Positions 16,914 through 62,763 of a stretch of 64,000 nucleotides of DNA are shown piece after piece. The translations under genes and the position numbers were made by a program. The stretch's first letter is position 1. Every line of letters begins with the position of its first letter. A model generated the notes under the pieces. It did no database searches. It was not told where the DNA came from and saw nothing but the letters and a program-made list of their open reading frames with translations. Origin of the DNA: Prorocentrum cordatum (taxonomy: Eukaryota; Sar; Dinophyceae; Prorocentrales; Prorocentraceae); NCBI GenBank assembly GCA_963575745.1, contig CAUYUJ010019376.1, forward strand, positions 62,001-126,000, given 5' to 3'.

Positions 16914-16970
16914 CCCTGCTTTCGAAGATTTCCTTTCAAAGGAACTGCGCAGCGCCTACTGCACACCTTA

Positions 16971-18166: not shown

Positions 18167-18185
18167 TCTCTGGCAAACAAAATGT

Positions 18186-18694: not shown

Positions 18695-19015
<321 letters not shown>

Positions 19016-19064
19016 ACATCACACTAAATCCATTCATGGGAGTGCCTGTTTTGGAGCTACACTC

Positions 19065-19210: not shown

Positions 19211-19696
19211 TTCTACTGCTACTACCACTGCTCCCATCACTCCTACTCGTTCACTCCACACACTACAACTACTACTTCACTGTTACCACTACTACCATCA
19301 CTACTAGTTATACTGCTACTACTACTGATACTATTACTGCTGCTGCTGCTGTTGTTGCTGCTGCTAGTGTAGCTATTGCTACTGCAACTACTGGCAGTGC
19401 CACTGCGACTGCCGCTGATGTTGCCACTGCGACTGCCACTGCGAATCCGACTGCGACTGCGAGAACACCAGAATTCTACAACAGCACTCTTACATGAATA
19501 CCACAGGCAATGTTTCCAGCTATGCTTCTACACATCGCTGTTAGGTTGCTTTGCGGGGATAATTTTTCATTGCCCAAGGTGGATACAGCCACCTGCGCTA
19601 GAGACGTTTACAACGGGGAGCAGCACGTCGCATTTTGCACCGAATTCCATCTTAAACTTCAATGCGGGAAGCTACGCTTGACCTTTGTTCTTTTTA

Positions 19697-36425: not shown

Positions 36426-36639
36426 GAAGCATGTGGGGAAAAAACTGTTCGTACTCTATTAATTTTTCAGGGATGACAATGCCTTTCTTGATCATTCCCC
36501 TTCTTCTCCTCCTGCTGCTCCTCCTCCTCCTTCCTCCCCCCCTTCCTCAGCCTCCTCCATCTCCTTCCTCCTCGCCCCTTCTTCTCCTCCAGTCCCCCTG
36601 CATCAGACCGCGCCCTCGCGCGCGCGGAATGCGAGGATG

Positions 36640-38499: not shown

Positions 38500-39387
38500 A
38501 CATCGACAATGTTCAGGCCCAGGTTCAGGAGCAGGGTGTTGCGTTTTCCAGCTTGGAGGTCAAACAAAACCAACTGGAGAATATCGTCCGGGGACTCCAG
38601 GGACAGGTTCGAGCAGGTTCTGTGGCGAGTGACGCTTCTACGAGGCCTGCTGATACTAGAACGGGTACATACCAGGCTCCTGGAGGTTCTAATTCCTATC
38701 CCTCATATATCGAACTCAAGGGATGGGCCACTGACTGGAGTGACAGGGATCGTAGGTATCAGGAGATGCTCGCGTGGGAAGATGTGAAGGTGCTCATCGA
38801 TAACATCACAAACCAGTGTCTTTCAGAGAATGATCGCGTGCGTGTGTTGACGGTACGGAGCGGATCAACGCTGGTCGCTACATGTTCGGATCGGCTAACG
38901 TGAAATTCAAGCCAGGGACGGACAAGGATATCATATGGCGTGCCAAGCGCTGCATCGACCTTTGAGGGTACCCCCTGCCAGACGTCCTGCGCCTCCTCCA
39001 GGTATCCAGATTGCGTCACCACAGTGCCTCATCGAGAATACGGTACATAATTTCAATCCTGAGCTGCTCAAAGTCAGTGTCGAGTGCCCAGCGTGGAAGC
39101 GAGGCCACGTCAAGGCAGTCAAGCGCTTCCGCGGCACGCTTCGGAGCATGTGTACACATATTGGTATCGATGTCATCGCTGTTAGAGGGGAAATTGAGCC
39201 GCCTAAATCTTCTATATGGACTGTACCCACTGTTGCTGGTCAAAGGCCTTTTCTCCTGGCCGAGTGTACCACGACACAGTCGACATGGGAGGTATCGAAT
39301 GAGAGCGTCGAGAGATTGCATCAGCTCGTTCCTGCTTTTACAAAAACTAAAACTGATACCGATATGGAAGTCAACAGGAAGATGTGA
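38500..39387 (+). pseudogene. LINE-C ORF1, degenerate
   Basis: Three frames must be joined: LEVKQNQLENIVRGLQGQV (coiled coil) and SYIELKGWATDWSDRDRRY in one; INAGRYMFGSANVKFKPG and WRAKRCIDL in a second; and LKVSVECPAWKRGHVKAVKR then MCTHIGIDVIAVRG in the third, ending NRKM at TGA 39385-39387. The ELKGWxTDW and V-E-C/A-P-x-W-K blocks match LINE-A ORF1 (FVELKGWVTDWRDAEKR, VHVEAPPWKKPHLDAAG). Confidence 0.7.
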
Positions 39388-40110
39388 CGACGACGACGCC
39401 GTACACCGTTCAAGCGGGTGCGACTGGGCAGCTGGAATCTCAATCGCGCGGGGTCGGCCAATTTCAAGAGGAATCAAGTCCTGAGGAGCTTCCGCATGCG
39501 GGATAGCATCTGGGGTGTTCAGGAATGCCAGAATCTTTTCGGAGGCAAATCCGACGCACATATCAGGCGTTGTGGCTTATCATATCGTGTGAGTTGCGAC
39601 GGTAAGTGTCGGTAAGGAGTGGAGTACATGTGTGCGTGAATCACTGTGTCAGTACGAACGATTATGTGTGGTGGTCTTCGGTAGTGGGAGTGCTCTTGTG
39701 ATTGTGGTCTCTGCGTATCTTCCCGACCCCAGTGTCGAGAACGCAGTATCGTGCAGTGTGGGGTCATGGACTCGAGGCAGCCATTTTCAGTAGGCGCAGT
39801 CGCTGGACAGGTGCGACTGTCTCTGTGCTGCTCGATGCCAGTGTTGAGCTACCTTCATCGACTTAGCTCCAGTGCTCACGCACGGGGACGGTCTATGAGG
39901 CGGTGGCGTGTTCTAGCAATGAGGAGAGGAGGAGCTGCGAGGGAGGTGCACAACGGGAATGGAGGGATGTACGACAGCATCTTCGCGAGCGTGTTCTCTG
40001 CTTTTTTGGGCGCCTGGGGATGAAAGCTGCCATTTCGTTCTTGCCACGACGACTACACACGTTGGAGGGTTTCGGAACCTCTCGTGGGGGACATGTGAAC
40101 GTTGGCCGCG
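39388..40110 (+). pseudogene. LINE-C ORF2 fragment: APE-type endonuclease, degenerate
   Basis: In the same frame as the end of ORF1, directly after TGA 39385-39387, the reading is RRRRRTPFKRVRLGSWNLNR with no ATG. SWNLNR and GVQECQNLF are the first two APE endonuclease motifs. Later, in shifted frames, come VVVSAYLPDPSVE, LLDASVELP (the DANVE-type motif) and REWRDVRQHLRERVLCFFGR. The sequence is lost before the SDH motif and the RT. Confidence 0.65.
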
Positions 40111-42450: not shown

Positions 42451-43177
42451 GAATAGTTTTTCAGCCAAAGCGATTTCAGTCCTCTCGATGAAACAGTCGA
42501 ACGCCCCCGATGCTTCTGGATTGTCTTCTGCACGAGCTCTGTAGCCTCTACAGCCCGAGTTACGTGCGTAATTCGACAGCAGCTCTCAAAATGACTCGAG
42601 AAAAAAAAAAAAACAAAAAAAAAAAAAAAAAGAAAGTTTGGCAAACCCAGCTCGACTATCAGACCAAGTTCAGACCTCTGAATGCGACAGGCGGACGCGT
42701 CTGATGTCTCCGATTCGATTCCTGTGATTACCAGCCCTGCAGCCCCGCTACAACCCGATTTAAGGGGAGAAAACCGACAGCACCTCTCAGGATAACTCGA
42801 ACAATACGAATAGTTTCGCGGACCTAGTTCGGGCAGCAGACCGAGTTCTGAGCTCTGGATTCGACAGGCGGACGCGCCTCATGTCTTCAAATCAATTCCT
42901 GTGGCCACCAGCACTACAGCCCCCTACAGCTCGAGTTGAGTGCAAAAAACCGACAGCACCTCTCAAGATGACTCGAACAATACAAATAGTTTCGCGGTTC
43001 TAGATCGGGCAGCGGACCGAGTTCAGAGCTCTGGATTCAACAGACAAACACGACTGATGATTCTGAATCGGTTTTTGAAAGCATCAGCTCTGTAGCTGTC
43101 CTATAGCTCGAGTTAAGTACAGAAAACCGAGAGCGCCTGTCAAGATGACTCGAATAGTACGAATAGGTTTGCCGACC

Positions 43178-43757
43178 TAGCTCGGCTAGCAGACCGAGTT
43201 CAGACCTCTGCATGCAACAGACGAACGCGCCTGATCATTCTAAATCGGAGAGATGAGCTTACCAGCTCTGTAGCTGTCCTGTATCTCGAGTTAAGTCCAA
43301 TACACCGACAGCGCGTATCAAGATGACTCGAAACGGCCGATCCCGCCGCAGTGCTTTTTGGCAGTAAAAGGTACCCGATCGAGCTGAGATCAAGATGGCG
43401 AGCGGGAATAAGATCGAATATCACGGGAAAAAATACTAGAGCTCTAACGAATATTTCGAGAACAAAATTTTTTGCGTCGACCTAGCTCGGCTAGCAGACC
43501 GAGTTCAGACCTCTGCATGCAACAGACGAACGCGCCTGATCATTCTAAATCGGAGAGATGAGCTTACCAGCTCTGTAGCTGTCCTGTATCTCGAGTTAAG
43601 TCCAATACACCGACAGCGCGTATCAAGATGACTCGAAACGGCCGATCCCGCCGCAGTGCTTTTTGGCAGTAAAAGGTACCCGATCGAGCTGAGATCAAGA
43701 TGGCGAGCGGGAATAAGATCGAATATCACGGGAAAAAATACTAGAGCTCTAACGAAT
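43178..43757 (+). repeat. Near-perfect 305-bp tandem duplication inside the satellite
   Basis: The segment from TAGCTCGGCTAGCAGACCGA to ATACTAGAGCTCTAACGAAT occurs at 43178 and again 305 bp downstream at 43483 without visible differences over at least 250 bp. Other monomers in the array differ by several percent, so this duplication is recent or an assembly artefact. Confidence 0.88.
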
Positions 43758-46700
43758 GGTTGAATTTCGAAAACAAAATTTTCAACCGACCAAAAGTCAC
43801 CAAAAGGTCCGTCGAGATTTGTCTTGCCAACTAGCTCTCCAGCGCGCCGGAATTACTCTTAAGCTTCCAGCAACAACTGGGCGCCGGCGGAACCGTCAAC
43901 CTTTCTTACCGCCGGGGGACTCGTAGAGCTTCCTGATAATATATAATGTCGGAAAAATTGCAGAGAACGAATAGTTTTTCAGCCAAAGCGATTTCAGACC
44001 TCTCGATGCAACAGCCGAACGCCCCCCGATGCTTCTGGATTGTCTTCAGCTCTGTAGCTCTACAGCCCGAGTTACGTGCGTTAATCGACACACCTCTCAA
44101 GATGACTCGAACAAAACGAATAGTTTGGCAAACCCAGCTCGAGTATCAGACCGAGTTCAGACCTCTGAATGCGACAGGCGGACGCGTCTGACGTCTCCGA
44201 ATCGATTCCTGTCCGAGTTAAGTGCAGAAAGTCGACTCGAACCATACGAACAGCTTCGCGGACCTAGTTCGGGCAGCAGACCGAGTTCCGAGCTCTGGAT
44301 TCCACAGGCGGACGCGCCTGATGTCTTCAAATCGATTGCTGTCACCACCAGCACTGTAGCCCCCCTACAGCCCGAGTTAAGTGCAGAAAACCGACAGCAC
44401 CTCTCAAGATGACTCGAAGAATACGAATTGTTTCGCGATTCTGGATCGGGCAGCAGACCGAGTTCAGGGCACTGAATTCAACAGAGAAAAGCGACTGATG
44501 ATTCTGAATCGATTTCTGTACGTATCAGCTCGAGTTAAGGACAGAAAACCGAGAGCGCCTGTCAAGATGACTCGAATAATACGAATAGGTTTGCGGACCT
44601 AGCTCGGCTAGCAGACCGAGTTCAGACCTCTGGATGCAACAGACGAACGCGCCTGATCATTCTGAATCGATTAGCTGTGCTTACCAGCTCTGTGGCTGTC
44701 CTATATCTCGAGTTAAGCCCAACACACCGACAGCGTGTATCAAGATGACTCGAAACGGCCGATCCCGCCGCAGTGCATTTTGGCAGTAAAAGGTACCCGA
44801 TCGAGCTGAGATCAAGATGGCGAGCGGGAATAATATCGAATATCACGGGAACAATACTAGAGCTCTAACGAACGGTTGAATTTCGAAAACAAAATTTTCA
44901 ACCGACCAAAAATCACCAAAAGGTCCGTCGAGATTTGTCTTGCCAACTAGCTCTCCAGCGCCCCGGAATTACTCTTAAGCTTCCAGCAACAACTTGCTAA
45001 GGGAAGCTCTACGAGTTACTTGCTAAGGGAAGCTCTACGAGTTACTGGGCGCCGGCGGTAAACCGTCAACCTTTCTTACCGCCGGGGGACTCGTAGAGCT
45101 TCCTGATAATATGCAATGTCGAAAAAATGCAGAGAACGAATAGTTTTTCAGCCCAAGCGATTTCAGACCTCTCGATGCAACAGCCGAACGCCCCCCGATG
45201 CTTCTGGATTGTCTTCTGTACGAGCTCTGTAGCTCTCCTACAGCCCGAGTTACGTGCGTCAATCGACAGCACCTCTCAAGGTGACTCGAACAAACCAAAT
45301 AGTTTGGCAAACCCAGCTCGAGTATCAGACCGAGTTCACACCTCTGAATGCGACAGACGGACGCGTCTGATGTCTTTGAATCGATTCCTGTGATTACCCC
45401 CCCTGCCGAGTTAAGTGCAGAAAGCCGACAGCATCTTTCAGGATGACTCGAACAATACGAACAGTTTCGCGGACCGAGTTCGGGCAGCAGACCGAGTTCC
45501 GAGCTCTGGATTCCACAGGCGGACGCGCCTGATGTCTCCAAATCGATTGCTGTCACCACCAGCACTGTAGCCCCCCTACAGCCCGAGTTGAGTGCAGAAA
45601 ACCGACAGCACCTCTCAAGATGACTCGAACAATACGAACAGTTTCGCGATTCTGGATCGGGCAGCAGACCGAGTTCAGAGCTCTGGATTCAACAGACAAA
45701 CGCGACTGATGACTCTGATTCGGTTTCTGTAAGTATCAGCCCTGTAACCCTATAGCTCGAGTTAAACACAGAAAACCGAGAGCGCCTGTCAAGATGACTC
45801 GAATAATACGAATAGGTTTGCGGACCTAGCTCGGCTAGCAGACCGAGTTCCGACCTCTGGTTGGAACAGCCGCACGCGCCTCATCATTCTGAATGGATAA
45901 GGTGTGCTTACCAGCTCTGTAGCTGTCCTATATCTCGAGTTAAGTTCAGTATACCGACAGCGCGAATCAAGATGACTCGAAACGGCCGATCCCGCCGCAG
46001 TGCTTTTTGGCAGTAAAAGGTACCCGATCGAGCTGAGATCAAGATAGCGAGCGGGAATAACATCGAATATCACGGGAAGAAATACTAGAGCTCGAACGAA
46101 TGGTCGATTTCCGAGAACAAAATGTTCAACCGACCAAAATTCCTTAAAACTGGGCGCCGGCGGTAAACCGTCAACCTTTGTTACCGCTGGGGGACTCGTA
46201 GAGCTTCCTGACAACATATAATGTCGAAAAAATTACACAGATAAAATAATTTTTCAATTTTAAACCTCTCGGATGGCCGAACGCCCCCAATGCTTCTGGA
46301 TTCTCTTCTGTACGAGCTCTGTAGCTCTCCTACAGCCCGAGTTACATGCGTAAACCGACAGCACCTCTGAAGATGACTCAAACAATACGAATAGTTTGGC
46401 AAACCTAGCTCGAGTATCAGACCGAGTTCAGACCTCTGCGACAGACGGACGCGTCTGCTGAATTGGTTCCTGTGATTACCAGCCCTGCAGCCCCCTACAG
46501 CCCGAATTTTGTGCAGGAAACCGAGAGCACCTCTCAGGATGACTCGAACACGAAAAGTTTCGCAGACCGAATTCGGGCAGCAGACCCATTCCGAGCTCTG
46601 GCTTCAGAAGCCGGACGCGCCTAATGTCTTCGAATCGATTCCAGCGATGACCAGCCACGCAGCCCCCCTACAGCACGAGTTAAGTGCAGAAAACCGACAG

Positions 46701-47479
46701 CATCTCTCAAGATGACTCGAACAACACGAATAATTTCGCGATTCTAGATCGGGCAGCAGACCGAGTTCAGAGCTGTGGATTCAACAGACAACGGCCACTG
46801 ATAATTCTGACCTAGATTATGTACGTATGAGCTCTGCAGCTGTCCTGTAGCTCGAGTTGAATACAGAAACCGAGACCGCCTGTCAAGATTACTCGAATAA
46901 TACGAATAGGTTTGAGGACCTAGCTCGGCTATCAGACTGAGTTCAGACCTCTGGAGTTAACAGGCGAACGCGCCTGATTATTCTGAATCGATTAGCTGTG
47001 CTTACCAGCTCTCTAGCTGTCCTGAAGCTCAAGTTATCTTGAGAAAACCGACACCGCGTATCAAGATAACTCGAAACGGCCGATACCGCCTGGACGTTTT
47101 TTGGCAGTAAAAGGTACCCGCTCGAGCTGAGACCCAGATGGCAAGCGGAAATGAGATCGAATATCACGGGAAAAAATACTAGAGCTCTAACGAATAGTTG
47201 AATTCTGAGAACAAAATGTTCAACCGACCAAAAGTCACCAAAAAGTCCGTCGAGATTTTTCTTGCCAACTAGCTCTTCAGCGCCCCGGAATTACTCTTAG
47301 CTTCCAGCAATAACTTGCTAAGGGAAGCTCTACGAGTTATGTCTGTCGAGATTTTTCTTGCCAACTAGCTCTGCAGCGCCCGAGAATTTCTCTTAACCTT
47401 CCAGCAATAACTTGCTGAAAAAGATGTTATACGAGTTACTTTGTCCTTCCTGGCCAAGTCTAGCTGCACCCGCGCCAGA

Positions 47480-47775
47480 ATTCCTCTAGCTAACCGATGC
47501 CGAGACAGGAAATCTTTCCCGGTGAGCTCTGGGAGCCCCCGGGGCGCTGGGAAAGCACTGCCAGGCACGCCCCCGTGCGTGCAGGCACGCGTGGACGCGT
47601 GCCTTCCTGCAGAGCTCTGTCACACACCCCTGGGGCGCCTGCAGAGCTCTGCCGAACCCTTCCGAGGCGATCCTGCGTTGCTGCAGACCCGCTGCCGGGC
47701 TGGGCGAGGCGCTGCGGGGATCGTGGACCGGCGAAGATGGGCTGCTGGCGGGCACCACCACCGTCCTGCTTCTAA
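47480..47775. other. GC-rich island inside the AT-rich satellite
   Basis: About 290 bp of clearly GC-rich, non-satellite sequence between GAATTCCTCTAGCTAACCGA and TCTAATCTAAAACCC. It contains GGCACGCGTGGACGCGTGCC (47584-47603), an 18-bp palindrome with a GG spacer, and three GCAGAGCTCTG words. It looks like an insertion or conversion tract; no gene is recognisable. Confidence 0.7.
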
Positions 47776-49423
47776 TCTAAAACCCTTCAGCTGAGAGCTC
47801 TCCGGGAACAAGCTCCACCCCGCGCCAGACTGGGCGCCGGCGGTAAACCGTCAACCTTCGTTACCGCCGGGGAACTCATAGAGCTTCCTGACAACATGTA
47901 ATGTCGAAGAAAATTACACTGAAAAAATAGCTTTTCAGCCCAAGCAATTTCAGACCTCTCCGATGTAACAGCCGAACGCCCCCGATGCTTCTGGATTGTC
48001 TTCTGTACGAGCTCTGTAGCTCTCCTACAGCCCGAGTTACGTGCGTCAATCGACAGCACCTCTCAAGGTGACTCGAACAAAACGAATAGTTTGGCAAACC
48101 CAGCTCGAGTATCAAACCGAGTTCACACCTCTGAATGCGACAGACGGACGCGTCTGATGTCTTTGAATCGATTCCTGTGATTACCAGCCCTGCAGCCCCC
48201 CTACAGCCCGAGTTAAGTGTAGGAAACCGACAGCACCTCAGGATGGCTCGAACAATAATAGTTTCGCGGACTCGGCAGCAGACAGAGTTCCGAGCTCTGG
48301 ATTCGAAAGGCGGACGCACCTGATGTCTTCGAATCGATTCCAGTGATTACCAGCCATGCAGCCCCCCCACAGCCCGAGTTCAGTGCAGAGAACCGACAGC
48401 ATCTCTCAAGGTGACTCGAACAATACGAATAGTTTCGCGATTCTAGATCGGGCAGCAGACCGAGTTCAGAGCTCTGGATTCAACAGACAAACGCAATTGA
48501 TGATTCTGAATCGGTTCCTGCGCATCAGCTCTATAGCTGTCCAGTAGCTCGAGTTAAGTACAGAGAACCGAGAGCGTCTGTCAAGATGACTCGAATAATA
48601 CGAATAAGTTTGCGAACCTAGCTCGGCTAGTAGACCAGTTCAGACCTCTGGGTTCAACAGACGAACGCGCCTGATCATTCTTAATCGATTAGCTGTGCTT
48701 ACCAGCTCTGTAGCTGTCCTAAAGCTTGAGTTATCTTGAGAAAACCGACAGCGCGAATCGAGATGACTCGAAACGGCCGATCCCGCTCGATTAAGTACAG
48801 AAAACCCAGAGCGCATGTCAAGATAACTCGAATAAAACGAATAGGTTTGCGGACCTAGCTCAGCTAGCAGACCGAGTTCAGACCTCTGGGTTCAACAGGC
48901 GAACGCGCCTCGTCATTCTGAATCGATTAGCTGTGCTCACCAGCTCTGTAGCTGTACTGAAGCCCGAGTTATCTTGAGAAAACCGACAGCGTGTGACAAG
49001 ATGACTCGAAACATCCGATCCCGCCCGTGTGCTTTTTGGCAGTGAAAGGTACCCGATCGAGCTGAGATCAAGACGGCGAGCGGGAATAAGATCGAATATC
49101 ACGTGAAAAAATACTAGAGCGCTAACGAATGGTTGAATGTTGAAAACAAAATTTTCAACCGACCAAAAGTCATCAAAAGTTCCGTCGAGATGTTTCTTGC
49201 CAACTAGCTCTCCAGCGCCCCGGAACTGGGCGCCGGCGGTAAACCGTCAACCTTGGTTTTTGTTTTGCGGTTTGCGGTCCGCCACTAGAATCCGAATCCG
49301 AATCGGCGGAGCAGTGCAACTGAGCCCCCACCATCTTAGGTAGGTCGTAGCAGAGCGCACGCCACCTTAGCAGCAGCTCTCGTCAGGGCAGCGCAGGCAG
49401 CTAGTTCACAGCAGGTTACCGTG

Positions 49424-52400
49424 CTACCAGGAGGCAAGCTCATCGCCTCCTCGGCCACATCGTGCCAATGGAAGCTGTGCGAGCTGGTGCAGGAGGGAGG
49501 AGGAGGAGGAGGAGGAGGAGATGGGAAAATCAACCTGCACGCTGGAACCCCTACCTACAACGCCAATCTGAAGCCACCACCCACCTCCACATCCTTCATT
49601 ACTGACACCCCCATCGAATGCACCACGGAGAGCAGTCTTACGAGTACTGAGGAACTTATCATATGCAAACCAGCGAGTAATAGTTTGGCCACCTCTGGCC
49701 TCCCACGACAATTTATCCGCACGCTCATTACCCTCACGAAAGAAATGCTTATACAGATTCTGTCCCGATGCAGGTGAGGTCAGTCCCCATCCAGACAGCA
49801 TCGATACCGTATTTTGTAGTGTTCCCACCAGTCGTACATACTGCTTGTTGCGAATCTGCCACTCACCACACATCCAGTTTACAACAGTCTTACTATCTCC
49901 CAAGATCTCCATCCCAAGACGCTCAATATTCTCACACCTCCACTCCGTTTCATTCTCAAAATTAGCGGCAATACGTTTGCTCATCCTCTCATTCATCTCA
50001 CTCTCCTCCTCCTCCTCTGCCTTCACATGTCTCACACCAGGCGGCCTGGGTAGAACAAACAAGTCGAACAAGTGTTGCATACCAATCACAGTCAGCAAAT
50101 GCTTGCAGTATTTCTCACGGGACCCAGCGGAACTGTCGAATGAGAGGTACCACTCACAACCAAAGAGATCGCACAAGCACCAGTCCCACGCAGTATGTCC
50201 ACGGGGGCGGCCGCCTATGTTCATGCGCGTCAGCTGCTTCCTATCTTTTACAGGCAATGCTAGAATACATGTGTCACGATGTTCCGTCCACTTCCCCCTT
50301 CCATGTAACATGGCCAGCCTAGATATCATCCATTCACGTGACATGTCCGACTCCTCAGGTATGGCAGGCTGATCATCTGGTGTACGCCGGCGACAGCCAC
50401 TCGACATCTGGGATATCTGAGATACATGATATGTTTGAGAAGTCGCCGCCGCCGCCATCGCCCGAGTTTTCCTCTGACGCCGATTTGGTACCGTCTCTCC
50501 CTCCTCCTCCTCTGTGTGTGTTGTGTATCTCCTCATACGAATACTTGCAGCAACTGAGACATCCTTAGCCCAATCCCAACAACGAAATATCCATATCTGC
50601 ACCGCACTTCGGAATCCAAGTCCAGCAAAACTCTGTCGTCCCGCTTTGTATCGCCTACGTTGAAACTCAGACCAGCCTTCAGTTCTCCGCTTGCGTATAC
50701 CTGACATTATAGCTAGACATCTGCCTTCAAAATAGTGAACAGCAGCAATGGTAGAATAGTCGGGCGTTCTGCCCTCACAGTTGAATAATAATGCAGCAAT
50801 CACTTTAGCTTGATAGCGAGTAAATCTTTCAGCCAAGTCAATCCCAGAACAGCGGTAATACGCGATTTCCCCAAAGAACATCCTCTGGGCTTTCTGGAGC
50901 ATGGCCTCTGAGTCCGAGTGGTCCTTCCAGGTCTCCTCCAGAGTGGCTCCCAGGATCTCAAACGCTTGAACACGCGGTAGGACCACTTCTCGGGTCCCAA
51001 GAGCGGCGTCACTAGACGGCACCAGCACACGGATATCCTGCTCAGGGGACGGCGGGATGCCAGGCGGCGCACCAAAGTAAATATACATCAAAGATTTCGG
51101 CTTCCAGGTCATTCCTGCATTCATCAGGGGGATACTCATGTCACGCACCATCAACTCAAGGTCAGTGCGGGTCTTCGCATACAACAAAAGATTATCTGCC
51201 CAGAAACTGTGGGTCATACGCTCACCATTGAACATGCGCTCATCATTTTCCAATTTGATGCCGTACTGCGTTTCTTGCCTCCATCTGTCGATAACATCTC
51301 TCCAGAGTACAATAGAAACTGCCAGAAAAATCATAGGTCCCTCTACTCCTCCCGTTCGAATAGATTTGTCCCAATAGACCGCTGACGATGCCTCGATGCC
51401 CTCGAAGCTGGCCACGCACTGATTATCCATCATGGGTTCAATCAACGCCACAATGAGATCAGCAGGTATGTCAAGAGCACGAAGACAGCGCATGGCGAGG
51501 CACGGAGTAACATTATCGAAAGCTTGTAAGATATCAAGATTGGCAAGCCACAAACTGTCTCCTTTGCCCCAGACAGCGGAGTGCTGGCTGAGCCTCTTGG
51601 CAACGCTGGTGATTTCCGATGTTTTACGTCCCGATCTGAATCCGTACAGGCATACATAGTGTCGGTGCTCCTCAATCCTCTTCTCAATCAACATCACAAT
51701 ACATGTCATGTACCATTTCATAAGACACGACTGTAGACATAGCATACGTGTATCTGTCAAATGTTGTATGTCCATTTCTTTTGGCATGAGTGTGGCAGCT
51801 AGTTGACGCCAACTGTCGGGACAACATAACCTTCTGGAATACACACCTTGGAAGCTCACCAGAACACGTCGCACAGATGCCCACGAGAGCTGTTTCAACA
51901 TCGTGACAGTCACGTTGTCGGGACCTGGGGCCTTTCCCGTGGACAGCTTCGCCCTCGCCCGCAGCAGGAGCGACATCGAGAACACCTCTGAGGATCCGCT
52001 TCCCGAACATAGACCACGCAGCGACTGAAGCTCACGCAGGGTCACCTCTCTGGCCTCGGGGTCCTCCACCTTAGACTTCATGTGCCCCAATATCTCGTCC
52101 CCCCACTCCTCGCGGTTCTGAGACTCCATCCCGTTGGCAAGGATCAACGTCTCCGTCTTGGCCCTCCTCCTCCTCCTCGTGTTCATTTCCGTCCTCCACC
52201 TCTGTACTCTTGCCTCTAGCCTCCTTCTTTCTCTCCTCACAATCTTTGAGCACCGTTTAGCCTCCTCTCTATCCCCCCGACGAAGAGCTTCACGTTTACT
52301 TGCCTGGGCGGCCCAGTGGATCTCGGATTTCTTTGGCACATTATTCCTGGGATTGATATCTTTCTGGGGGGTCTCCTCGGCGGCCTTTATGAGGTCAGGT

Positions 52401-53509
52401 CCCAGCGTATCCAACATCTCCTGTCGATCCTCTGGGTCAGCATTTTCCTGGCACAGAGCACGGTAACGACTGCCCCGATCGTCCATGTTCTTCGCAAACT
52501 CCAGCTGTGACACCGGTTGCAAGTGGATGAATTTTCGAGCAGGCTGGGTCCGTCTCTTCGCAGACGGTGCACAAGACAAGCGAACAACTATGCAGGCGTG
52601 GTCAGACAGCGCACGCTCGTATCTGCTGCAAGGGTGCTCCGTCCAGGCGTGGCCGACTTCCGAAGGCAGCATCCAGCCAACGGTGAGCTCCTGCCTGTGT
52701 AAACGACGGCTGACACCAACATAGTCGAGTACCTTCTCCACCCCCGTACCTGATTTGAAAGTAACCCTCCTCTGCCCGAATGTGTTCTCCATCCTGATGC
52801 CCCAGAGCCCGCAGAAGTCCAGTAGGGCCCTCCTCATCGATTGCAACCTAGACGCCCGTCGAATTTCGAAGCCCGAGACAAGCCTATGAGGTCTGGCTTT
52901 GCGTGCACCACGTTTTGTTTGAGTCATATACGGGTTGCCGTCATCCGCTCCCTCCTCCATCCCAGTATCAATCTCCGTAGACTCCCCAGCAATCCCAGAC
53001 GCCTCCAGAAGCCCTGATCCAGTAACTCTAAAGCCGTTGACCTCCGAATCTGGCTCGAGTTCGACGTTAGCATCTGTCAAGAAGACCAGGTCCTGCGGCT
53101 GCTTCGGGAACTTAGACCTATGTGTGCGAAGCACTTGGGATATATCAAACAATATCTGCTCATACACATCATGCTCATACTGTTCTTCCGTAAGGGCATT
53201 GATACTCTCATGTGGCATATATGCAACAATAACCGTAACACTAGAATAACTACAAATGACAAAACCTTTGCCACGATATGTGGCTCTGAGCGAGTCTCTC
53301 CAAGACTTAGACATAATCACCGCAGCCTTCCGACAAGTACTCCGAAAAATTGTGTAACCTCGCATGCTGAGATCACGAACTGAAAGGAACTGACACTCGC
53401 ACAACCCCGCGAGTCCCACATCTAAACGACGTAGTGAATTAATTATGTCATGGCCGTTCTCTGCACCTGCCCGACGCACATTCCATGACGCAATGGTGTC
53501 GTGGCACCT
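49424..53509 (-). CDS. LINE-A ORF2: APE endonuclease, RT, permuted RNase H
   Basis: The frame continues directly from the ORF1 TAG: RCHDTIASWNVRRAGAENGH, with no ATG before SWN. Numbering from the GTG at 53479: endonuclease motifs SWNVR, LCECQF, LTDANVE, LDYVGV and LSDHACIVV; RT motifs YGFRSGRKTSEI, LDILQAFDNV (A, about 51520), RTGGVEGPMIFL (B), FWADNLLLYA (C, about 51195; ADN for ADD) and EILGAT. The RNase H region has GDSKTVVNW (Asp 1195), REGNERAD (Asp 1255), then AFDGG (Asp 1289). The helix with the catalytic Glu (TVTCCELAACAALTR, Glu codon 49407-49405) is in another frame ending at 49336, so one frameshift near the (GGA)n at 49496-49521 breaks the end. Confidence 0.88.
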   Translation of the reverse strand, partial: RCHDTIASWNVRRAGAENGHDIINSLRRLDVGLAGLCECQFLSVRDLSMRGYTIFRSTCRKAAVIMSKSWRDSLRATYRGKGFVICSYSSVTVIVAYMPHESINALTEEQYEHDVYEQILFDISQVLRTHRSKFPKQPQDLVFLTDANVELEPDSEVNGFRVTGSGLLEASGIAGESTEIDTGMEEGADDGNPYMTQTKRGARKARPHRLVSGFEIRRASRLQSMRRALLDFCGLWGIRMENTFGQRRVTFKSGTGVEKVLDYVGVSRRLHRQELTVGWMLPSEVGHAWTEHPCSRYERALSDHACIVVRLSCAPSAKRRTQPARKFIHLQPVSQLEFAKNMDDRGSRYRALCQENADPEDRQEMLDTLGPDLIKAAEETPQKDINPRNNVPKKSEIHWAAQASKREALRRGDREEAKRCSKIVRRERRRLEARVQRWRTEMNTRRRRRAKTETLILANGMESQNREEWGDEILGHMKSKVEDPEAREVTLRELQSLRGLCSGSGSSEVFSMSLLLRARAKLSTGKAPGPDNVTVTMLKQLSWASVRRVLVSFQGVYSRRLCCPDSWRQLAATLMPKEMDIQHLTDTRMLCLQSCLMKWYMTCIVMLIEKRIEEHRHYVCLYGFRSGRKTSEITSVAKRLSQHSAVWGKGDSLWLANLDILQAFDNVTPCLAMRCLRALDIPADLIVALIEPMMDNQCVASFEGIEASSAVYWDKSIRTGGVEGPMIFLAVSIVLWRDVIDRWRQETQYGIKLENDERMFNGERMTHSFWADNLLLYAKTRTDLELMVRDMSIPLMNAGMTWKPKSLMYIYFGAPPGIPPSPEQDIRVLVPSSDAALGTREVVLPRVQAFEILGATLEETWKDHSDSEAMLQKAQRMFFGEIAYYRCSGIDLAERFTRYQAKVIAALLFNCEGRTPDYSTIAAVHYFEGRCLAIMSGIRKRRTEGWSEFQRRRYKAGRQSFAGLGFRSAVQIWIFRCWDWAKDVSVAASIRMRRYTTHTEEEEGETVPNRRQRKTRAMAAAATSQTYHVSQISQMSSGCRRRTPDDQPAIPEESDMSREWMISRLAMLHGRGKWTEHRDTCILALPVKDRKQLTRMNIGGRPRGHTAWDWCLCDLFGCEWYLSFDSSAGSREKYCKHLLTVIGMQHLFDLFVLPRPPGVRHVKAEEEEESEMNERMSKRIAANFENETEWRCENIERLGMEILGDSKTVVNWMCGEWQIRNKQYVRLVGTLQNTVSMLSGWGLTSPASGQNLYKHFFREGNERADKLSWEARGGQTITRWFAYDKFLSTRKTALRGAFDGGVSNEGCGGGWWLQIGVVGRGSSVQVDFPISSSSSSSSLLHQLAQLPLARCGRGGDELASW

Positions 53510-54556
53510 CTAGTTCGTACTGGAAATCCTCGCTCGCAACTCATCAATGTTGATCCCTGGCTCAAGCTGATTCATTGCACGAGTAATCTCCCAGCCATTC
53601 TGCAGAGAGAACTTGGCCACAATCTTCCCTGGAGGTGGTAAGTGGTCACTGGAGCCCCACATGAACGTAATCGGTGGTCCCGTCTCAGCCCTGAGATTCG
53701 AATGATGCTTCTTGAAACTCTTGAACTTGGCCTGAAAGATCCCAGCGGCATCCAGATGGGGCTTCTTCCAGGGGGGGGCCTCCACGTGGACCTTGAGGGC
53801 CCTGGGAGCGTGCTGGAGTTTGTTGTCGGCGATCGCGGCAACGAGTCGACGACGAAGATCCCACAGCTGGTCACTGGTAACCCCATTCTGGAAATAGAGC
53901 CGAGCACGCGAATACCCCCACGCCTCTCTACCTGTGTTGAACCTCTTGGATTGGTTCAGGTCCAGAAACTCCTTCACACCACTGAACCATTCTCCAGCCA
54001 GGACCTCATTCAGCAGTGAATTCAACGCCTGCTGTGATAACATCTCCTCCTGACGCTTCTCTGCATCCCTCCAGTCCGTCACCCATCCCTTGAGCTCGAC
54101 GAACGATGGGGTGAAATTCTGCACTGACTGCCGAGTTTCCGCCGAGGACGCTGTCGTAGAGGTGCCTGCTCTGGGGGCCCCACCTGCAGGAGCCTGCTGG
54201 AGCTGGATTATCTGGAGCCTCTGATCCTCAACCTTCTTAGTAATAGCATCTATGTCCGTCATCGCCTGCTGTACATTTTTCTCCACCGAATCAACACGAG
54301 CATTGAGCTGGGTGCCGAGATCCGTGATGCTTCGATGTGTTGATTGGAAGCCCTCCGTCATCTTACCTCCCAGAGATGCAACAAGCGTCGTGATCTTGTC
54401 CATCCCCTTTGTCATGGCCTCCTCGAGGCCTTCAACCGTCTGAATTTTGACCCGTTTTCCCTCTGGGACCTCCTCCTCCTTGGCTCCTGGAACGGGCATA
54501 TCAGTGGCGTCCATAGCGAAAACCTCGGGGACCGCAGCAGCTGATGAGGCAGCCAT
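53510..54556 (-). CDS. LINE-A ORF1 protein
   Basis: 348 codons from ATG 54556 (MAASSAAAVPEVFAMDATDM) to TAG 53512-53510; the frame is open upstream of this ATG into the flank, but that part is untranslated leader. Residues about 45-105 form a coiled coil (GMDKITTLVASLGGKMTEGF, VDSVEKNVQQAMTDIDAITK), expected to trimerise or oligomerise as in other LINE ORF1 proteins. Then follow FVELKGWVTDWRDAEKRQEE and a C-terminal RRM-like or otherwise folded region with LKVHVEAPPWKKPHLDAAGI and KIVAKFSLQNGWEITRAM. No CCHC knuckle is seen. The likely role is RNA binding in the retrotransposition particle. The stop codon is in frame with ORF2. Confidence 0.85.
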   Translation of the reverse strand: MAASSAAAVPEVFAMDATDMPVPGAKEEEVPEGKRVKIQTVEGLEEAMTKGMDKITTLVASLGGKMTEGFQSTHRSITDLGTQLNARVDSVEKNVQQAMTDIDAITKKVEDQRLQIIQLQQAPAGGAPRAGTSTTASSAETRQSVQNFTPSFVELKGWVTDWRDAEKRQEEMLSQQALNSLLNEVLAGEWFSGVKEFLDLNQSKRFNTGREAWGYSRARLYFQNGVTSDQLWDLRRRLVAAIADNKLQHAPRALKVHVEAPPWKKPHLDAAGIFQAKFKSFKKHHSNLRAETGPPITFMWGSSDHLPPPGKIVAKFSLQNGWEITRAMNQLEPGINIDELRARISSTN

Positions 54557-55001
54557 CTTGCCGTCTGAGATATTACAAGGGATATTCCACTTCGCACAGA
54601 ACGATCGATCTTCTCGAGTACGTTTGAGATGTGCACTCAACTGATGAAAGTTATATGGGGCAACAGGATGGTGAGGTAAAGTGGGAGAGAGATCAGGTGG
54701 CCCAGATGGTATGTCGACTAGAGAATCCTTATCGTCGTGTCGAGCTCTACCAACCTGTCTGGCAAGATACTCCCACTCCCAATGTCCGAAGTTGGCTCCC
54801 CAGCGGTCCAAATCGATCGATTGACTCTGGCTCGTCCCGTCCAGCTCGACGCGGCAAAATGCCGCAACAATGCACACAAACAAATACAAACAAATGCAGG
54901 CGGCCTGCTTGCCTCGGACTCGCCGAAGTCGCCGAAGTGGCCCGATCGCCACGCGCCCCCCGCGCGGCGGGCCAGGGGCAGTCTCCCGGCGGTAACCTTG
55001 G

Positions 55002-56869
55002 TTACCGCCGGGAGACTCGTAGAGCTTCCTAGCTCGACTTACGTTGAGAAAACCGACAGCACCTACCAACATTCCGACTTATAGTGAATATTTTCATCTC
55101 TGAATGCGACAGGCGGACGCGTCTGATGTCTGCGAATCGACTCCTGTCATTACCAGCACTGCAGCCCCCCTACAGCCCGAATTAAGTGCAGAAAACCGAC
55201 TGCACCTCTCAGGATGACTCGAACAATCCAATGGTTTCGCGGACCTAGTTCGGGCAGCCGACCGAGTTCCGAGCTCTGGATTCGACAGGCGGGCGCGCCT
55301 GATCTCTTCAAATCGATTTCTGTGACAATAAGCACTGTAGCTCCCCTCAGCGCGAGTTCAGTGCAGAAAAACTCTGAAGATGACTCGACCAATACGAATA
55401 ATTTCGCGATTCTAGATCGGGCAGCAGACCGAGTTCGGAGCTCTGGATTCGACAGACGAACGCAACTGGTGATGTTGAATCCGTTCCTGTAAATATCGGC
55501 TCTGTAGCTGTTCTGCAGCTCGGGTTAAGTACAGAAAACCGAGAGTTTCTGTCAAGATGACTCGAATAATACGAAAAGGTTTGCGGACCTAGCTCGGCTA
55601 ACAGACCGAGTTCAGACATCTCGATTCAACAGGCAAACGCGCCTAATCATTTCACATCGATTAGCTGTGCTTACCAGCTCTGTAGCTGTCCTGAAGCTCG
55701 AGTTATCTTAAGAAAACCGTCAGCGCGTATCAAGATGACTCGAAACGGCCGATCCCGCCACCGTGCTTTTCCAAAGTAATATTCACCCGATCGAGCTGAG
55801 ATCGAGATGGCGAGTGGGAATAAGATCGAATATCACGGGAAAAAATACTAGAGCACTAACGAAGGGTCAAATTTCGAGGACAAAATTTTCAACCGACCAA
55901 AAGTCACCAAAAGTTCTGTCGAGATTTTTCTTGCCAACTAGCTCTCCAGCGCGCCGGAACTGCGAGCCGGCGGTAAACCGTCAACCAGGTTACCGCCGGG
56001 AGCCTCGTAGAGCTCTTATCTGCACGACGCTGCTTGGAACACATAGGAGAAGCTTTGTTACGTTTGAGCTGAAAAGCCTTTCAAATTACGCTTTTCAGCT
56101 CTCACCGAAAGTCGCTTGATTCAAGTGGGAACCGACAGCACCTCTCAGATGACTCGTGCAATACGAATAGTTTCGCGGATCTATGGATCATTCTGAATCG
56201 GTTCGAACTACAGAAAACCGTCAATGCGTGTCAAGATGCTCGAAACGGCCGATGGTTCCCTCAAGTCTTTTGATAATAAAATTGCAGCTACAGACCTGAA
56301 AATTTCACTGGCAGACCCGGCACAACCCACTACAGGTGAGAAAAATACCGGTTCCCAAAACGAGCTTTAAAATGTTGCACAAAGATTGCAAAACCGACCC
56401 AAAATTACCACATCGTCTCTTAAGGTCGGGTCGGCCAACTAGCTCCACCCTGCGCCCGAATTCCTCTTATCTCATCTTGCCGAAGAGTTCTACGAGGTAT
56501 TACCCTTAAGCTTCTAGCAACTGGGAGCCGGCGGTAAACCGTCAACCAGGTTACCCTCGTAGAGCTCTTTTCTTGCACGGCGCTGCTTTAAAACACGTTG
56601 CAGGGGCGTTTCTGAAAAGTCGAGAAACTAAGTTTTTAGTTGTCACCGAACGATGGTTCCGCCAAGTGTTTTAATAATAATACTGCAGCTACGGACCTGA
56701 GTATTCATTGGCAGACGCGACAAAACCCATTACAGGTGCAAAAAATACCGGTCCTCAAAACGAATGTTCAAATCTCTCACAAAGCTCGTCCAACCGACCC
56801 AAAGTTCGCACATTGTCCGTCGGGGCCGGGTCGGCCAACTGGGCGCCGGCGGTAAACCGTCAACCTTGG
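55002..56869 (+). repeat. Satellite block between LINE-A and LINE-B
   Basis: Begins TTACCGCCGGGAGACTCGTA, the second half of the motif split by LINE-A, followed by monomers of the 177-bp type (55030-55960). Motif copies are at 55964-56013 and 56523-56566, type 1 units lie between, and a half-motif at 56840-56869 touches LINE-B. The segment after the motif (CTAGCTCGACTTACGTTGAG, CCTACCAACATTCCGACTTA) has a close counterpart right of LINE-B at 62769. Confidence 0.85.
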
Positions 56870-56912
56870 TTTTTGCTTTGCTCGGAGCCCACAGGGACAA
56901 AGGAGCCCCCGC

Positions 56913-59900
56913 TCAGGATTCAGGTCCGCAGCAGAGGAGCAGCAGGTGCTCGACACCTTCAGCGAGGCGCTTGCTGGCCAAGAGCTCAGCTTGACTAACC
57001 GTGCAGGTCGGCGGGATGGCGGCAGCCTCGGAGGCTATGTTGAATAGCCAAGAGCCTTGAGAGTGTTGAAGAGCAGGGAGGGGGAGCACGAATAAGTCAA
57101 TAACCCAACCAATGCCAACACCGTGGGAGGAACGACCACCATCGAAGTAGCCGCGAATCCCCTTTATTTGTTCCCTTCTGAGAGTATGAATGCACGGGTC
57201 GAAAGTACGATGGTTCTGGCCCGCGCGGGCCTTCCAAGTTTCAGCATCAGCACGCTCGTTTCCCTCACGATAAAACCACTTCCAAGGATCTAAACCCCAA
57301 GACGGCGGCCTCAGATTCACGCGGTAGTTCAAGTGTAATCTGTATAATATACTTTGAATGTGTGCAATGGTCTCACAATACACTTCCGTCGTACATACAT
57401 ATTGTCCCACCAGCCAGTTCACTACCACCTGGGAGTCACCACAGAGCTCGACGGGAATCCCTTCAGCCTCGTAGTTCCAGACGCTGGCATTCTCGAAGTT
57501 AAAGGCGAGCCGCTTTGCAATCTCATTTTTTCTCTCCTCCGTCCCCTCCACCTCCTCCTCGTCGATTTTCGGCCTCCAGGGTTTTGGTTCAGGCAGGTGA
57601 GCATATTCTAAAACATGTGGTAGGTCCCATTCCGATAGCAACGTACGGATAAAACATCTCCACCCTGCCTGAGTCCACTCAAGAGTATCATACCAAGCAT
57701 CTCCACCCACCGTTTCAAATGGCAAGCCCCACGGACGAAGTCCCACCGTTTTTCCACCTTCCCTTCGACGTGTAAAGGATCGTGCTTCCTGCGAGTTATA
57801 GGTGCGAATAACGGCATCCATCTGCTGTGTCCACGGGCTGGCGGCATGCATCATCGTGTAACGAGCCTACAAGAAAGGGTCATCCGCACTCGCCCCCACC
57901 ATATCACTTCGAAACCTTCTTCGCATGGCTGCTGGCGCTGGTGTAGGGGCTGATGATGATGATGGCGTTGCTGATGTGGGAGCAGTCTTGCTCCTTTTGG
58001 CAGCAGCACGGGACGCCTGAGAGATAAGCCGTCGTCGGTTCTGACTCGTGGCGCTGTTCTCCTGACCCTCTGGCAGAGCAACGGTGAGGTCCCCTCGGGC
58101 AGTAAGGACAGGGGCCGCAATAACAGTCACCCTCCGTCGTTTCAGATCTCTGGTAATCGGTGCAGCAGCACCCGCATTCAAAGACATCGAACCCGTGGTA
58201 ATCGGTACGACCGCGCCCGCATTCTGAGACATCAAGTCCGTGGTAATCGGTACAGTAGTACCCGCATTCTGAGACATCAAATCCATATCAAGAGACACTG
58301 CACCACCCATTTCCATTGGATCAATTGTAGGCTGGGCGTCATCAACTTGGCGGATCCCGTTTTGAGCAGTTGTCGTCGCCACATCCTTTGCCCAACTCCA
58401 CTGTTTGAAAAGAAAGAGCTGAACCGCACTCGGCATCTGAGCTGTCCTGAGTGCTTTCCGCCCCGTCAAGTACACGCTCTGAAAAAAAACTGTGGCCAAC
58501 TCTCGGTGTCGCGTTTCCGTCTCCATACCATCTTCGAAAGTAAGCGGCCTTCAAACGCATGAATCGATTCAATAGCATTTTTGTCAGCTGTCATCCCTTC
58601 CACTGCAAACAATAATCGGCTTCTTACACGTGAGTCGTATCGCAGCAATCTTTTCTTCAACTTAATACCCTGGCACATGTAATACTTCTTATCTTGCCAA
58701 AACGCCTTTTGAGCGAGAGAAATCCGATGATTCAAGTCCTCATGTTGTCGCATGCTGTTTTCAAGAATCGTGCCAAGTATTTCCAAACGATCTGTCTGCT
58801 GCAACGTTATAGTCACTCTCTGACGCTTGTCCTGGGAATTCGGCAACGCAAAAGAGACATCCAAACTCTCAGTCCCAGGCTCATCATAGCCAAAGCGAAT
58901 AAACTGCAAGCTACTCGGTTTCCATCTGTACTTTCTGTGATAAAGTGGGACACTGATCTCCGCAATCATGGTCGTCAACTCGCTCTGATCTCTGGCACAC
59001 AACAGAACATTGTCGGCCCAAATCGCATGTGTAAGATGACGAGTCCCTGCCTGCTGCGTCAACTGCACTCCCATCCCCCGCTCCTGCCAACTCAAGACCA
59101 CAGAACGGAACATGAGCACACTCTCACACAGCCAAAAGAGCGGAGCCTCAACACTACCTGTGCGGATACAACTATCCCAAGCTATGTCCGAGACGTCCAC
59201 CTGCTGGAAGGATAAATCGGCCCTGTTCTCAGCTAGGCCCTCCATGAGCGCATAACTAAGTTCAGGTGGAAACCTCAACTCCTCCAGGCAGTCAGCAACG
59301 TCGGCCACCTGTACGTTATCAAAAGCACGATACACGTCTAAACTCGCCGTGTGCATACAATATGACTTCCCCCATTCCGTCGCGTGCTGGGCAACTCTCT
59401 TCAAACCACCTGTAATCTCGTGTGTCCGTCTTCCAGCAACAAACCCGAAGAGCATGACCTCGGGGGCAACACTCCGTTTGAGATGGTCCACGGCCAACAA
59501 GGTGAGACATGACATATACCATTTTGACAGGCAAGATAATAATGATAAAGCTCGTGTGTCATTGAATTCGCAAGTCTTCACAGACTTCGGCATCAGCTGT
59601 ATACATATATGGCGCCATGCTGTGGGTGTGCGATACTCGCGCATAAACAGCTGCTGAAAGCACCGCAAGACTTGAAGGCAACCTGACCAAGGGATGTGCT
59701 TAAGCATGGAGACGCTGATGTTGTCCTTACCTACGGCCTTTCCTGAACGAAGACGAGACCTAGCACGCATGAGCAGGCCGATATCGATAGGGTGGTACTC
59801 CTGCATATTCACCTCCTGCAACCTCTTCCTCATCTCCTCAAGCTTACTGTTTGTGCGTGCACGCTCATGTTCATCAGTGTACATGGCCAAGCCGTGCGCT

Positions 59901-61286
59901 CTGAGGGCCTTCTCCCACTTAGACTTGTCCCAAGTGTGCACTCCCTCAACTTTGAGCGTCTTAAGGTATGTTCGATGCTGTAGACCTGGACGGAACTCAT
60001 ACTCCAAGATATTCCTCCCATGCTTCCTCCTCTCATATCTGTACCTCCTCCTCGCCTTCTTGAACTCCTCCTCCGTACATTCACCCTTATTTCTCTTCCT
60101 CCTCATCTCAAGTGCAGCCTCCCGAGCGGCAACATACTGCTCAGATACTTTCGGGGTGATGTCGGCTTTGGTGGGGACCTCGCCGATTTCCTCACAAGGC
60201 TGTCGAATCTTGTCACCTAGCTCCGTGGGCGAGAGACCCGTATGTCCACTCCAATCGGTCTGTTCTGTCTGGCTGTTGCCAGACACCAGGGCTGCATCAA
60301 CCGCATAGCGCAAAAGAGGTACACGATGAGACTGAACGTGCCAACGTGTTCTGCGGACAGGATTGGGACGCACAACTCGACGAGGCAAGACACGAGCAGG
60401 GATACGCAAGTGTAACAGACCATGATCACTCCAAAAGCTCGAGGCCGAGCTCCCAGACATATGTGCTGCCCCCCGGCTGTGGCCACAAGACGGAGACCTC
60501 AGGAGCTCCCCAAGACGAAGGTACACCTATGTAGTCGTAGACGTGAGAGTACTGCTGTTCTTGAGGTAGGTGCCTGTAGTGAGCCCATTTAGCAGAGCGC
60601 CAGGTAGGGAGCCTCGCAGGGTTGAAGGTGTTGGCCAACTGGAGGCCCAGGGTGCCAATAGTGAAAGTAAGAGCCTCACTGAGTTCCAAAGCAAACTCCT
60701 TAGATCGCCTCTGAAATCCGCCATCCCTCGTACGAGGGACAATAGGTACACCTACAACACTATGACCCGAGACAGCCTGAGACATGTGGAAAACCTGAGG
60801 CTCTACCTCTACATTAGCATCAGTTCCTAAAACAACATCCTGAATTCGAAACTGCTTTTTCAATCTGGCAACATTGAGCGCTGCATCCCTCAGCACTTCT
60901 TGGTATACACTAAGCGTACGCAAAAACTGCTCACGAGACTTCCCATGCAAATACTTATGGGGCAAGTAAAGAGAGAGAAAGATGGCATTAGAGCAAACAA
61001 CGGCAACCCAACGGTCGCCTCTGGCCTCGTGTTGGACATCATCCTTCCAAACACCTCGGAGGCCCACGCAAGCTCGCTCACAAGAGGAGCGCCAAAGATT
61101 CCAACCGTGCTCCTCAGCAACACGATCGGAGACAAACTGGCACTCTTGAAGGAGAATCACATTGCTTGAATTGAAGACCTGGGCGAAAATCTCGTGGCAT
61201 TGTGCAATCCCTAGCAAACGAACGTTCCAGCTGAAAATTGAGCGATCAACCTCAGCCAATTGTTCGTGCCACTTGCCAGGGCACCG
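56913..61286 (-). pseudogene. LINE-B ORF2: APE endonuclease, RT, permuted RNase H
   Basis: It follows the ORF1 TGA in the same frame: RCPGKWHEQLAEVDRSIFSW then NVR, with no ATG. The endonuclease has SWNVR, LLQECQF, GTDANVE, VYDYIGV and, after a shift at 60434-60437, WSDHGLLHL. RT: LFGFVAGRRTHEI, LDVYRAFDNV (A, about 59330), RTGSVEAPLFWL (B), IWADNVLLCA (C, about 59010; ADN). After a shift at 58482-58489 comes a linker with three 15-residue repeats (MSQNAGTTVPITT type, 58137-58290). After TAG 57867, an uninterrupted 313-codon part holds, numbered from 57854, CGDSQVVVNW (Asp140), REGNERAD (Asp203), GYFDGG (Asp238) and TVSQAELLASKRL (Glu290), ending at 56913. The RNase H motif order is permuted relative to the usual fold. 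Confidence 0.85.
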
Positions 61287-62458
61287 TCAACTCATGAGAT
61301 CAGCTTTGAAATTCCCCAGTTTGAAGTTTGGATCGACTTCCTTGATCATATCCTCATCAATCTTCCAACCCACTGCACGATCAGGCTTCCATGAGGCAAC
61401 ACACTGTCCCTTTTGCAGCTGCTGCTCGGACGGGTAAGCCAATAGAAACGTGGCGGGGGGTCCATATTTTCCACCTTTACAAAGGCGCTGGCACACGAAC
61501 GATGTTTATAAAATAGGGCCTTGAATTTGCCAGCAGCTTTGATGTGCGGTTCTTGCCACGGAGAGGCCTCCACCGTAACCGTGATCCTTTCATCACAGAT
61601 GTGGTTATACGTGGTCGCGTCGTGTGGATCCTCAAAGATGGCTTTCTGCTCGAAACATTGAATGAACGCTGTGCGAAAGACCCACATCATATCCTTCGTC
61701 GCCGTGGCTTTGAAGCATATCTTGAGCTGATAACATCCCATGGGGTTCTTACTGTTCTCATCATTCGTTTTTGTCTCATCCACGTGCGCCAAGCAATTCG
61801 CTTTTTGAAACAGAGTCGCAAGGAGGCGCTGGGCCACCGCTCCAGGGAGTAAAGCCTTGGATCTTTTATGAAGCTCTTCTGACGCTGTGCGTGCCCATCC
61901 TTTTATAGTTATCATCGTTGGTTGAAAGTTTGGCCTCGGACCCTTGAAGCCAAACTCCCCACGCGTACCCTGGAACTGGAAGCCAGGATTCCCCGAACCA
62001 GTCCCACGTGATGAAGCAACTGTTGAGGCATCGGCATTCGTTTTACTTTGGAGGGCTTCTAACTGTCTCTGCTGTGACTGCACCTGTGCATTGAGGCGTT
62101 GCAAATCGGTACTGTGTTCTTCCAACTTCAGTTTGATCGGCGCAACTTCACCTTGCATGATAGACTGAAAATTCCCCTTTTGCGTGGCAAACTTCGAATC
62201 GAGCAGCTGCGAGAGTGCCGCCAACTGAGGATTCAGCTGCTGTTGTTGTTGTTGAATCAATGCCTGCTCACGCTGCTGCCGTGCCAACTCACTCTGACGA
62301 CGACGTTTAGCATCCAATTCTTCCTCCAAAAGTCCACCTGCTGCTCCCGCTGCTGCATCCAAGAGACCTGGCGGTATACCCCCACGGATCTTGCTTTGAA
62401 GATCATCCCCTCCCATACCTTCGATGTCCAACTCCTCTAATTTTGTCATTTCCTCCAT
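61287..62458 (-). pseudogene. LINE-B ORF1 protein, one frameshift
   Basis: ATG 62458 (MEEMTKLEELDIEGMGGDDL). A Gln-rich segment IQQQQQQLNPQLAALSQLL and a coiled coil KLEEHSTDLQRLNAQVQSQQ are followed by GPRPNFQPTMITIKGWART and a folded part with ITVTVEASPWQEPHIKAAGK, matching the KGW and VEAPPWKKPH blocks of LINE-A. At the G6 run (plus 61452-61457) the frame shifts after MDPP; the other frame gives ATFLLAYPSEQQLQKGQCVA and KLGNFKADLMS to TGA 61289-61287. About 390 codons when joined. The single homopolymer lesion may be a sequencing error. Confidence 0.78.
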
Positions 62459-62763
62459 AACTGCAATGTGAAAGAGAACGAGGCAAGGAACAAAATACAA
62501 GTGCAACTGAAGAAATTGCCACAACCAAGTTGAGCATGCTATCTGTAACGCGTCCTGAGTGCACAACAAGATTCAGCTGATTGAAAACTGGCAAGAGGGA
62601 AGCTATGAAGCCCACTACCCAAGGGGCTTGATGCGTGTATGCCCTCGCAACGTAAGCGAAACACAACTTTGCTGGCGTAGGGGCTCTAAACTGGAGGCGA
62701 GGTCCAGGCAGAGTTTAAAACCCCTGTCGGATGCGCAGAGCAACCACGCCTTGAGCAACCAGG

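Follow-up and report, generated by a model that had tools for sequence, protein, structure and literature searches.

How a long interspersed nuclear element (LINE) makes much of the protein of its first open reading frame (ORF1) and little of that of its second (ORF2) is an old question, to which the answers so far are reinitiation or unexplained AUG-independent starts. SART1 and LINE-1, both elements without long terminal repeats (non-LTR) with ORF1 upstream of an ORF2 for endonuclease and reverse transcriptase, are described as using stop–start reinitiation or AUG-independent initiation (PMC2881922, PMC5009743). In the fungal Zorro3, an L1-type LINE with ORF1 and ORF2 on one transcript, multiple stops lie between the two (PMC7175516), so that single-stop readthrough cannot apply. 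Readthrough has been proposed for the stop between gag and pol of Tca2, an LTR retrotransposon of Candida albicans. In gammaretroviral Gag-Pol, one in-frame stop separates an RNA-binding, self-associating protein from a polymerase polyprotein. In type II viral readthrough (tobraviruses, furoviruses, alphaviruses) the logic is one of product ratios, with a replication enzyme encoded beyond the stop (PMC3542737). For a LINE, no published case of readthrough at a stop separating ORF1 from ORF2 was found in the open-licence literature that we searched, subscription papers lying mostly outside it. Here we consider a group of LINEs from the dinoflagellate Prorocentrum cordatum, three of which lie in a 64,000-nucleotide stretch of contig CAUYUJ010019376.1 (the window). 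An earlier note on this DNA had proposed that selection for readthrough, yielding a limiting ORF1–ORF2 fusion, keeps ORF1 and ORF2 of these three in frame with a single stop codon between them. The LINE anatomy is known; what would be new is a switch of the Gag-Pol style within it.

LINE-A (49.4–55.1 kb) and LINE-B (56.9–62.8 kb) adjoin head to tail, both in minus-strand orientation, and LINE-C, a decayed copy, lies on the plus strand at about 38.4–39.6 kb. Their parts, in window coordinates, are as follows.

53513..55078, minus strand: LINE-A ORF1 open frame, 522 codons from stop to stop, homologous to ORF1 of families B–G
53510..53512, minus strand: LINE-A junction stop TAG, in the context AAC TAG AGG TGC CAC
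49424..53509, minus strand: LINE-A ORF2, 1361 codons, with endonuclease, reverse transcriptase and C-terminal region; match to RVT_1 at E 8.8e-12
61346..62572, minus strand: LINE-B ORF1 body, its frame broken by an indel ahead of the junction
61287..61289, minus strand: LINE-B junction stop TGA, in the context AGT TGA CGG TGC CCT
60426..61286, minus strand: LINE-B ORF2 endonuclease part, in the same frame as the ORF1 end across the stop
58466..60526, minus strand: LINE-B ORF2 reverse transcriptase part, in a different frame (decayed copy)
56913..57866, minus strand: LINE-B ORF2 C-terminal part, homologous to the C-terminus of LINE-A ORF2
38899..39384, plus strand: LINE-C ORF1 end, 162 codons open
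39385..39387, plus strand: LINE-C junction stop TGA, in the context ATG TGA CGA CGA
39388..39612, plus strand: LINE-C ORF2 endonuclease start, 75 codons open and decayed beyond

When the coordinates and codons were re-read, each of the three LINEs did have ORF1 and ORF2 in one frame with a single stop between them, and no in-frame ATG from that stop to the catalytic Asn of the ORF2 endonuclease, just as the note had described. The first in-frame ATG of LINE-A ORF2 is its codon 49. In LINE-B the ORF1 body is in another frame; ahead of the stop the ORF2 frame stays open for 72 codons, which can be aligned with relatives. The copies are deeply diverged: between LINE-A and LINE-B, identity amounts to 21% for ORF1, 27% for the endonuclease and 34% for the reverse transcriptase.

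The elements are LINEs whose ORF2 carries a reverse transcriptase and, N-terminally, an APE-like endonuclease, as judged from profile matches and conserved residues. In addition to the RVT_1 match of LINE-A, LINE-B ORF2 matches the same profile at E 3e-06 with 27.6 bits, just below the curated threshold of 29.6. The segment after the stop, aligned across families, has an invariant Asn, an invariant Glu and a DxNVE motif (mostly DANVE; DFNVE in family G). An endonuclease profile built from six families matched ExoIII at 2.1e-05 and, weakly, LINE-1 endonuclease chains (0.015 and 0.016), and Exo_endo_phos matched three of the six members, at best with 3.1e-04. Since the alignments of this profile to ExoIII and the LINE-1 endonucleases begin near the N-termini of those proteins, the stop sits at the very start of the endonuclease domain. 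The invariant Asn presumably has the catalytic role that it has in LINE-1 and APE enzymes, and a product initiated at an ATG farther into ORF2 would lose it. ORF1, too, is homologous across the families. A scan of viral contigs gave no relatives of LINE-A ORF2, and of 7987 candidates scored in a protein-database search none reached an E value of 0.001 or better.

The arrangement extends well beyond the window. We scanned the assembly (4,128,499,153 bases in 21,875 contigs) and read 14 diverged families, to which we gave the letters A–N. Families D, E, F and G were read from neighbours of A copies; H, I and J, together with two B subfamilies, turned up when the genome was searched with the B endonuclease, and K, L, M and N when it was searched with that of E. 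Ten A copies sampled blind upstream yielded one junction (L036, a diverged A copy) and one hint that led to family F (L043). L031 and L034 contain no junction, and the stretch read for L064 stops short of it. The 14 are the families whose junction could be read in a usable copy, and in the best copy of each exactly one in-frame stop lies between ORF1 and ORF2. Identity between the ORF1 C-termini of different families does not exceed 44%. Ten families (A, D, E, G, H, J, K, L, M and N) are open up to the stop in the piece read. The ORF2 side of C is decayed, and in family I the copy whose ORF1 piece is in frame throughout (L051) contains an additional stop.

A junction-spanning genome search with the E junction as query, which covers the E–K–L–M–N side of the group, gave 1057 candidates, of which 150 matches were listed and scored. 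In 144 of these a single frame continues across the junction, with one stop in 135, two stops in six and none in three; the other six matches do not span it. As a frame-broken copy would give two matches, these six set a bound on the frame-broken class in the listed set. Sorted by identity, 60 of the 66 spanning E matches have one TGA, 62 of the 64 K-like matches have one stop, and so do 13 of the remaining 14 (12 TGA, 1 TAG). In 12 of the listed E copies a frame of 1860 codons is interrupted by the junction stop alone, and 20 of the listed K-like copies have an otherwise open frame of at least 1940 codons. The 20-mer that follows the stop in A occurs at 224 exact places in the assembly, and all 30 of the listed genome copies carrying it have TAG, as does L036. 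Family G was found at 157 places, with 99 TGA and one CGA among the 100 listed, and H at 22 places by pattern count, with nine TAG and one AAG among the ten listed. More than 30 near-identical copies of J were among those listed, many with an ORF2 of 1422 codons. E, G, J and K, which are intact and young, carry the junction stop, and in the copies read the arrangement of one frame and a single stop is certain.

A few copies depart from it. In L063, a decayed K-like copy, ORF1 and ORF2 are in different frames and alignment with K shows a gap of 8 nt at the junction, and L049 has an indel just after the stop. A sense codon occupies the stop position in L050 (AAG; contig C4103) and L066 (GGA; C15122, in a frame of 1863 codons), and C19284 and C89 are also without a junction stop. 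An in-frame stop in L032 was considered as the junction of family F and rejected; 61 nt are lost there, and the second F copy, L045, shows the real junction. L032 and L045 also have in common a break of the ORF1 frame about 30 codons before its end, beside a T run in L045, which may reflect decay common to both or mark a frameshift site. The ORF2 frames of C20423 (1717 codons) and C8450 (1706 codons) are unusually long.

As for the junction stop itself, eleven families have TGA, three (A, H and N) have TAG and none has TAA. The next codon is CGG in five, CGA in four, GGG in two, and AGG, CGC or CAT in one each. TGA is followed by C in 10 of the 11 TGA families, compared with 91 of 438 TGA triplets at any position in five of the LINE sequences, an enrichment of about 1e-6 by a simple binomial and of about 5e-4 when related families are collapsed to seven lineages. 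The frames at the end of ORF2 finish otherwise: A, D, E, F and G use TAG, B uses TGA-G, and two of the other fragments read use TGA-C. UGAC is described as leaky, and UGA-CGG or UGA-CUA as type II readthrough contexts (PMC3542737). Four of the 14 families (B, G, I and J) have UGA-CGG, and ten have UGA-C. The likeness to type II sites has its limits, since the codon after UGA is CGA or CGC in C, D, E, K and L, CAT in F and GGG in M, and A, H and N use UAG. Viral type II sites are also usually accompanied by an extended stem-loop about 8 nt downstream (PMC3542737), whereas we found no shared one here. The gammaretroviral site has UAG-G and a pseudoknot (PMC3542737), compared with mostly UGA-C and an endonuclease in place of the integrase in these LINEs.

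The NGG TGC that the note had pointed out after the stop in A and B recurs in G, I, J, M and N, that is, in 7 of the 14 families. The first residue it encodes is Arg in five of them and Gly in two, and since the motif is kept though the residue differs, this suggests constraint at the nucleotide level. The stop itself seems to have been replaced without being given up. In a FastTree tree of ORF1 (about 90 residues; supports mostly 0.7–0.99, one node at 0), A, H and N fall in three separate parts, each beside UGA families. The tree thus indicates at least two, and probably three, switches between UGA and UAG, with the stop never lost in any family; the two codons differ at two positions, so that a stop was kept through the change.

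Downstream of the stop, linker lengths were compared in 13 families, K not having been read as far as the catalytic Asn. The linker to that residue measures 10, 11, 12, 15, 17, 18 or 21 codons and is always in frame. None of the 13 has an in-frame ATG within it, and an AUG at or after the stop of the SART1 type is thus absent; in J and M not even a near-cognate codon is present. The collection of family copies therefore shows neither an ORF2 in another frame nor an upstream ATG in most members.

Taken together, these observations make programmed readthrough of the ORF1 stop the probable mechanism by which ORF2 of these LINEs is translated. The frame kept in 14 of 14 families and the missing ATG in 13 of 13 support, at the level of sequence, the note's proposal of selection for a limiting fusion. 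According to this model, most ribosomes would end at the junction stop and release the ORF1 protein, and a few would read through to give a scarce ORF1–ORF2 fusion with endonuclease and reverse transcriptase, much as retroviruses make Gag and Gag-Pol. Readthrough would be stimulated mainly by UGA-C, a leaky context, and by the CGG/CGA or NGG TGC that recurs immediately downstream. We infer from this the readthrough by the ribosome, the fusion as the working product and the selection for its low level.

Several points weigh against this model. A reporter study of Tca2 found no readthrough (PMC7175516), and an in-frame stop alone is thus no proof. Neither UAG-AGG in LINE-A nor UGA-GGG in M is UGA-C, and the context of A is outside the listed leaky motifs. 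No common stable 3′ RNA structure was found when 21 windows from seven families were folded; one window (family B) gave a z of −3.0 and the others about −1.9 to +1.5. The ORF1 read is broken farther upstream of the junction in B, F and I. The three stopless matches among the 144 spanning ones show that fused copies exist, as isolated copies. Finally, the families share ancestry, and 14 of 14 are not 14 independent events; collapsed to seven lineages, a simple model puts the frame result at about 1e-3.

The most serious of the other explanations, though an unlikely one, is that ORF2 starts alone just past the stop, by termination-coupled reinitiation or by internal entry at a non-AUG codon. ATG-independent initiation of ORF2 is discussed for mammalian LINEs (PMC5009743) and stop–start coupling is known for SART1 (PMC2881922), and at least one near-cognate codon lies ahead of the catalytic Asn in 11 of the 13 families read. 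A restart of this kind, however, needs no common frame, yet one is shared in all 14 families and in 144 of the 150 listed matches while the linker varies in length, and it is this that favours readthrough; SART1 and LINE-1 differ in the same respect, as ORF2 here is start-less and in the frame of ORF1. The near-cognates that do occur vary in codon and position, J and M have neither these nor an ATG, and the enrichment of UGA-C is unexpected if ORF2 starts independently. Non-ATG initiation, which the note had named as the main alternative, is weakened by the frame and codon data rather than eliminated. It is rather improbable that the stop is removed in the RNA, either by A-to-I editing, which would turn UGA and UAG into Trp, or by excision within a small intron. 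Nuclear RNA editing occurs in dinoflagellates, and editing of a single A also predicts UGA or UAG, never UAA, in the 14 families. UAA is itself scarce, however, at about 16% of the stop triplets of these LINEs, so that its absence from 14 junctions has a P of about 0.08; we know of no role in editing for CGG/CGA or the UGA-C bias after the stop, and no common splice-like sequence was seen at the junctions by eye, the only means applied.

There is only a slight chance that the junction is without function, an ancestral fused ORF having gained a stop that its copies inherit. All families do descend from common LINE ancestors, and fused copies without a stop occur (L050, L066 and the three among the 144 listed). 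Against simple inheritance, more than half of the ORF1 C-terminal residues differ, linkers vary and the stop has switched, yet stop and frame are kept in every family, including the intact, young E, G, J and K. Slighter still is the chance that this nucleus reads UGA and UAG as sense codons. Amoebophrya sp. ex Karlodinium veneficum, a dinoflagellate relative, has reassigned all three stops (PMC6394959; PMC11453091), but the intact ORF2 frames of 1361–1480 codons contain no UGA or UAG, and UAG closes the ORF2 frame in A, D, E, F and G and UGA that in B.

A satellite-like repeat of about 177 bp fills the window from 42 to 49 kb. A, D and E start right after one and the same stretch of it (GAGCTAGGAAGCTCTACGAGTC...; window 42000–49000 and 55027; L029, L030), and B after a close relative of that stretch. 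LINEs of different families thus appear to insert at one satellite site in one orientation. Members of different families directly adjoin one another, head to tail in the same orientation, in L010, L013, L015, L018, L021, L022 and at 49–63 kb of the window. Family A is young and numerous, with several pairs of copies 6–8 kb apart in one orientation (C8028, C3570, C467 and C728). Elsewhere in the window, part of a further reverse transcriptase (RVT_1, 6.1e-08) lies at 34994–36455 on the minus strand, apparently in a 5′-truncated LINE, and tandem arrays of 90-bp, 73-bp and 22-bp repeats occupy 3689–6641 and 8583–21512. The 73-bp unit recurs there in five distinct blocks, which border on GCTGAG arrays or other repeats.

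If readthrough is indeed used, the Gag-Pol solution would have arisen in non-LTR elements too, and the ORF1–endonuclease–reverse transcriptase fusion would be predicted as the active protein. On balance we lean, with somewhat less assurance than for readthrough itself, towards a dinoflagellate LINE group in which readthrough of UGA-C or UAG for ORF2 is inherited and obligate, the stop being switched but never lost and the 3′ motif setting the dose. Its thousands of copies would then form a natural library of readthrough sites that the ribosomes of the host must tolerate, and the natural variants within it (UGA versus UAG; CGG versus CGA or GGG) would offer a means to measure termination by the dinoflagellate ribosome.

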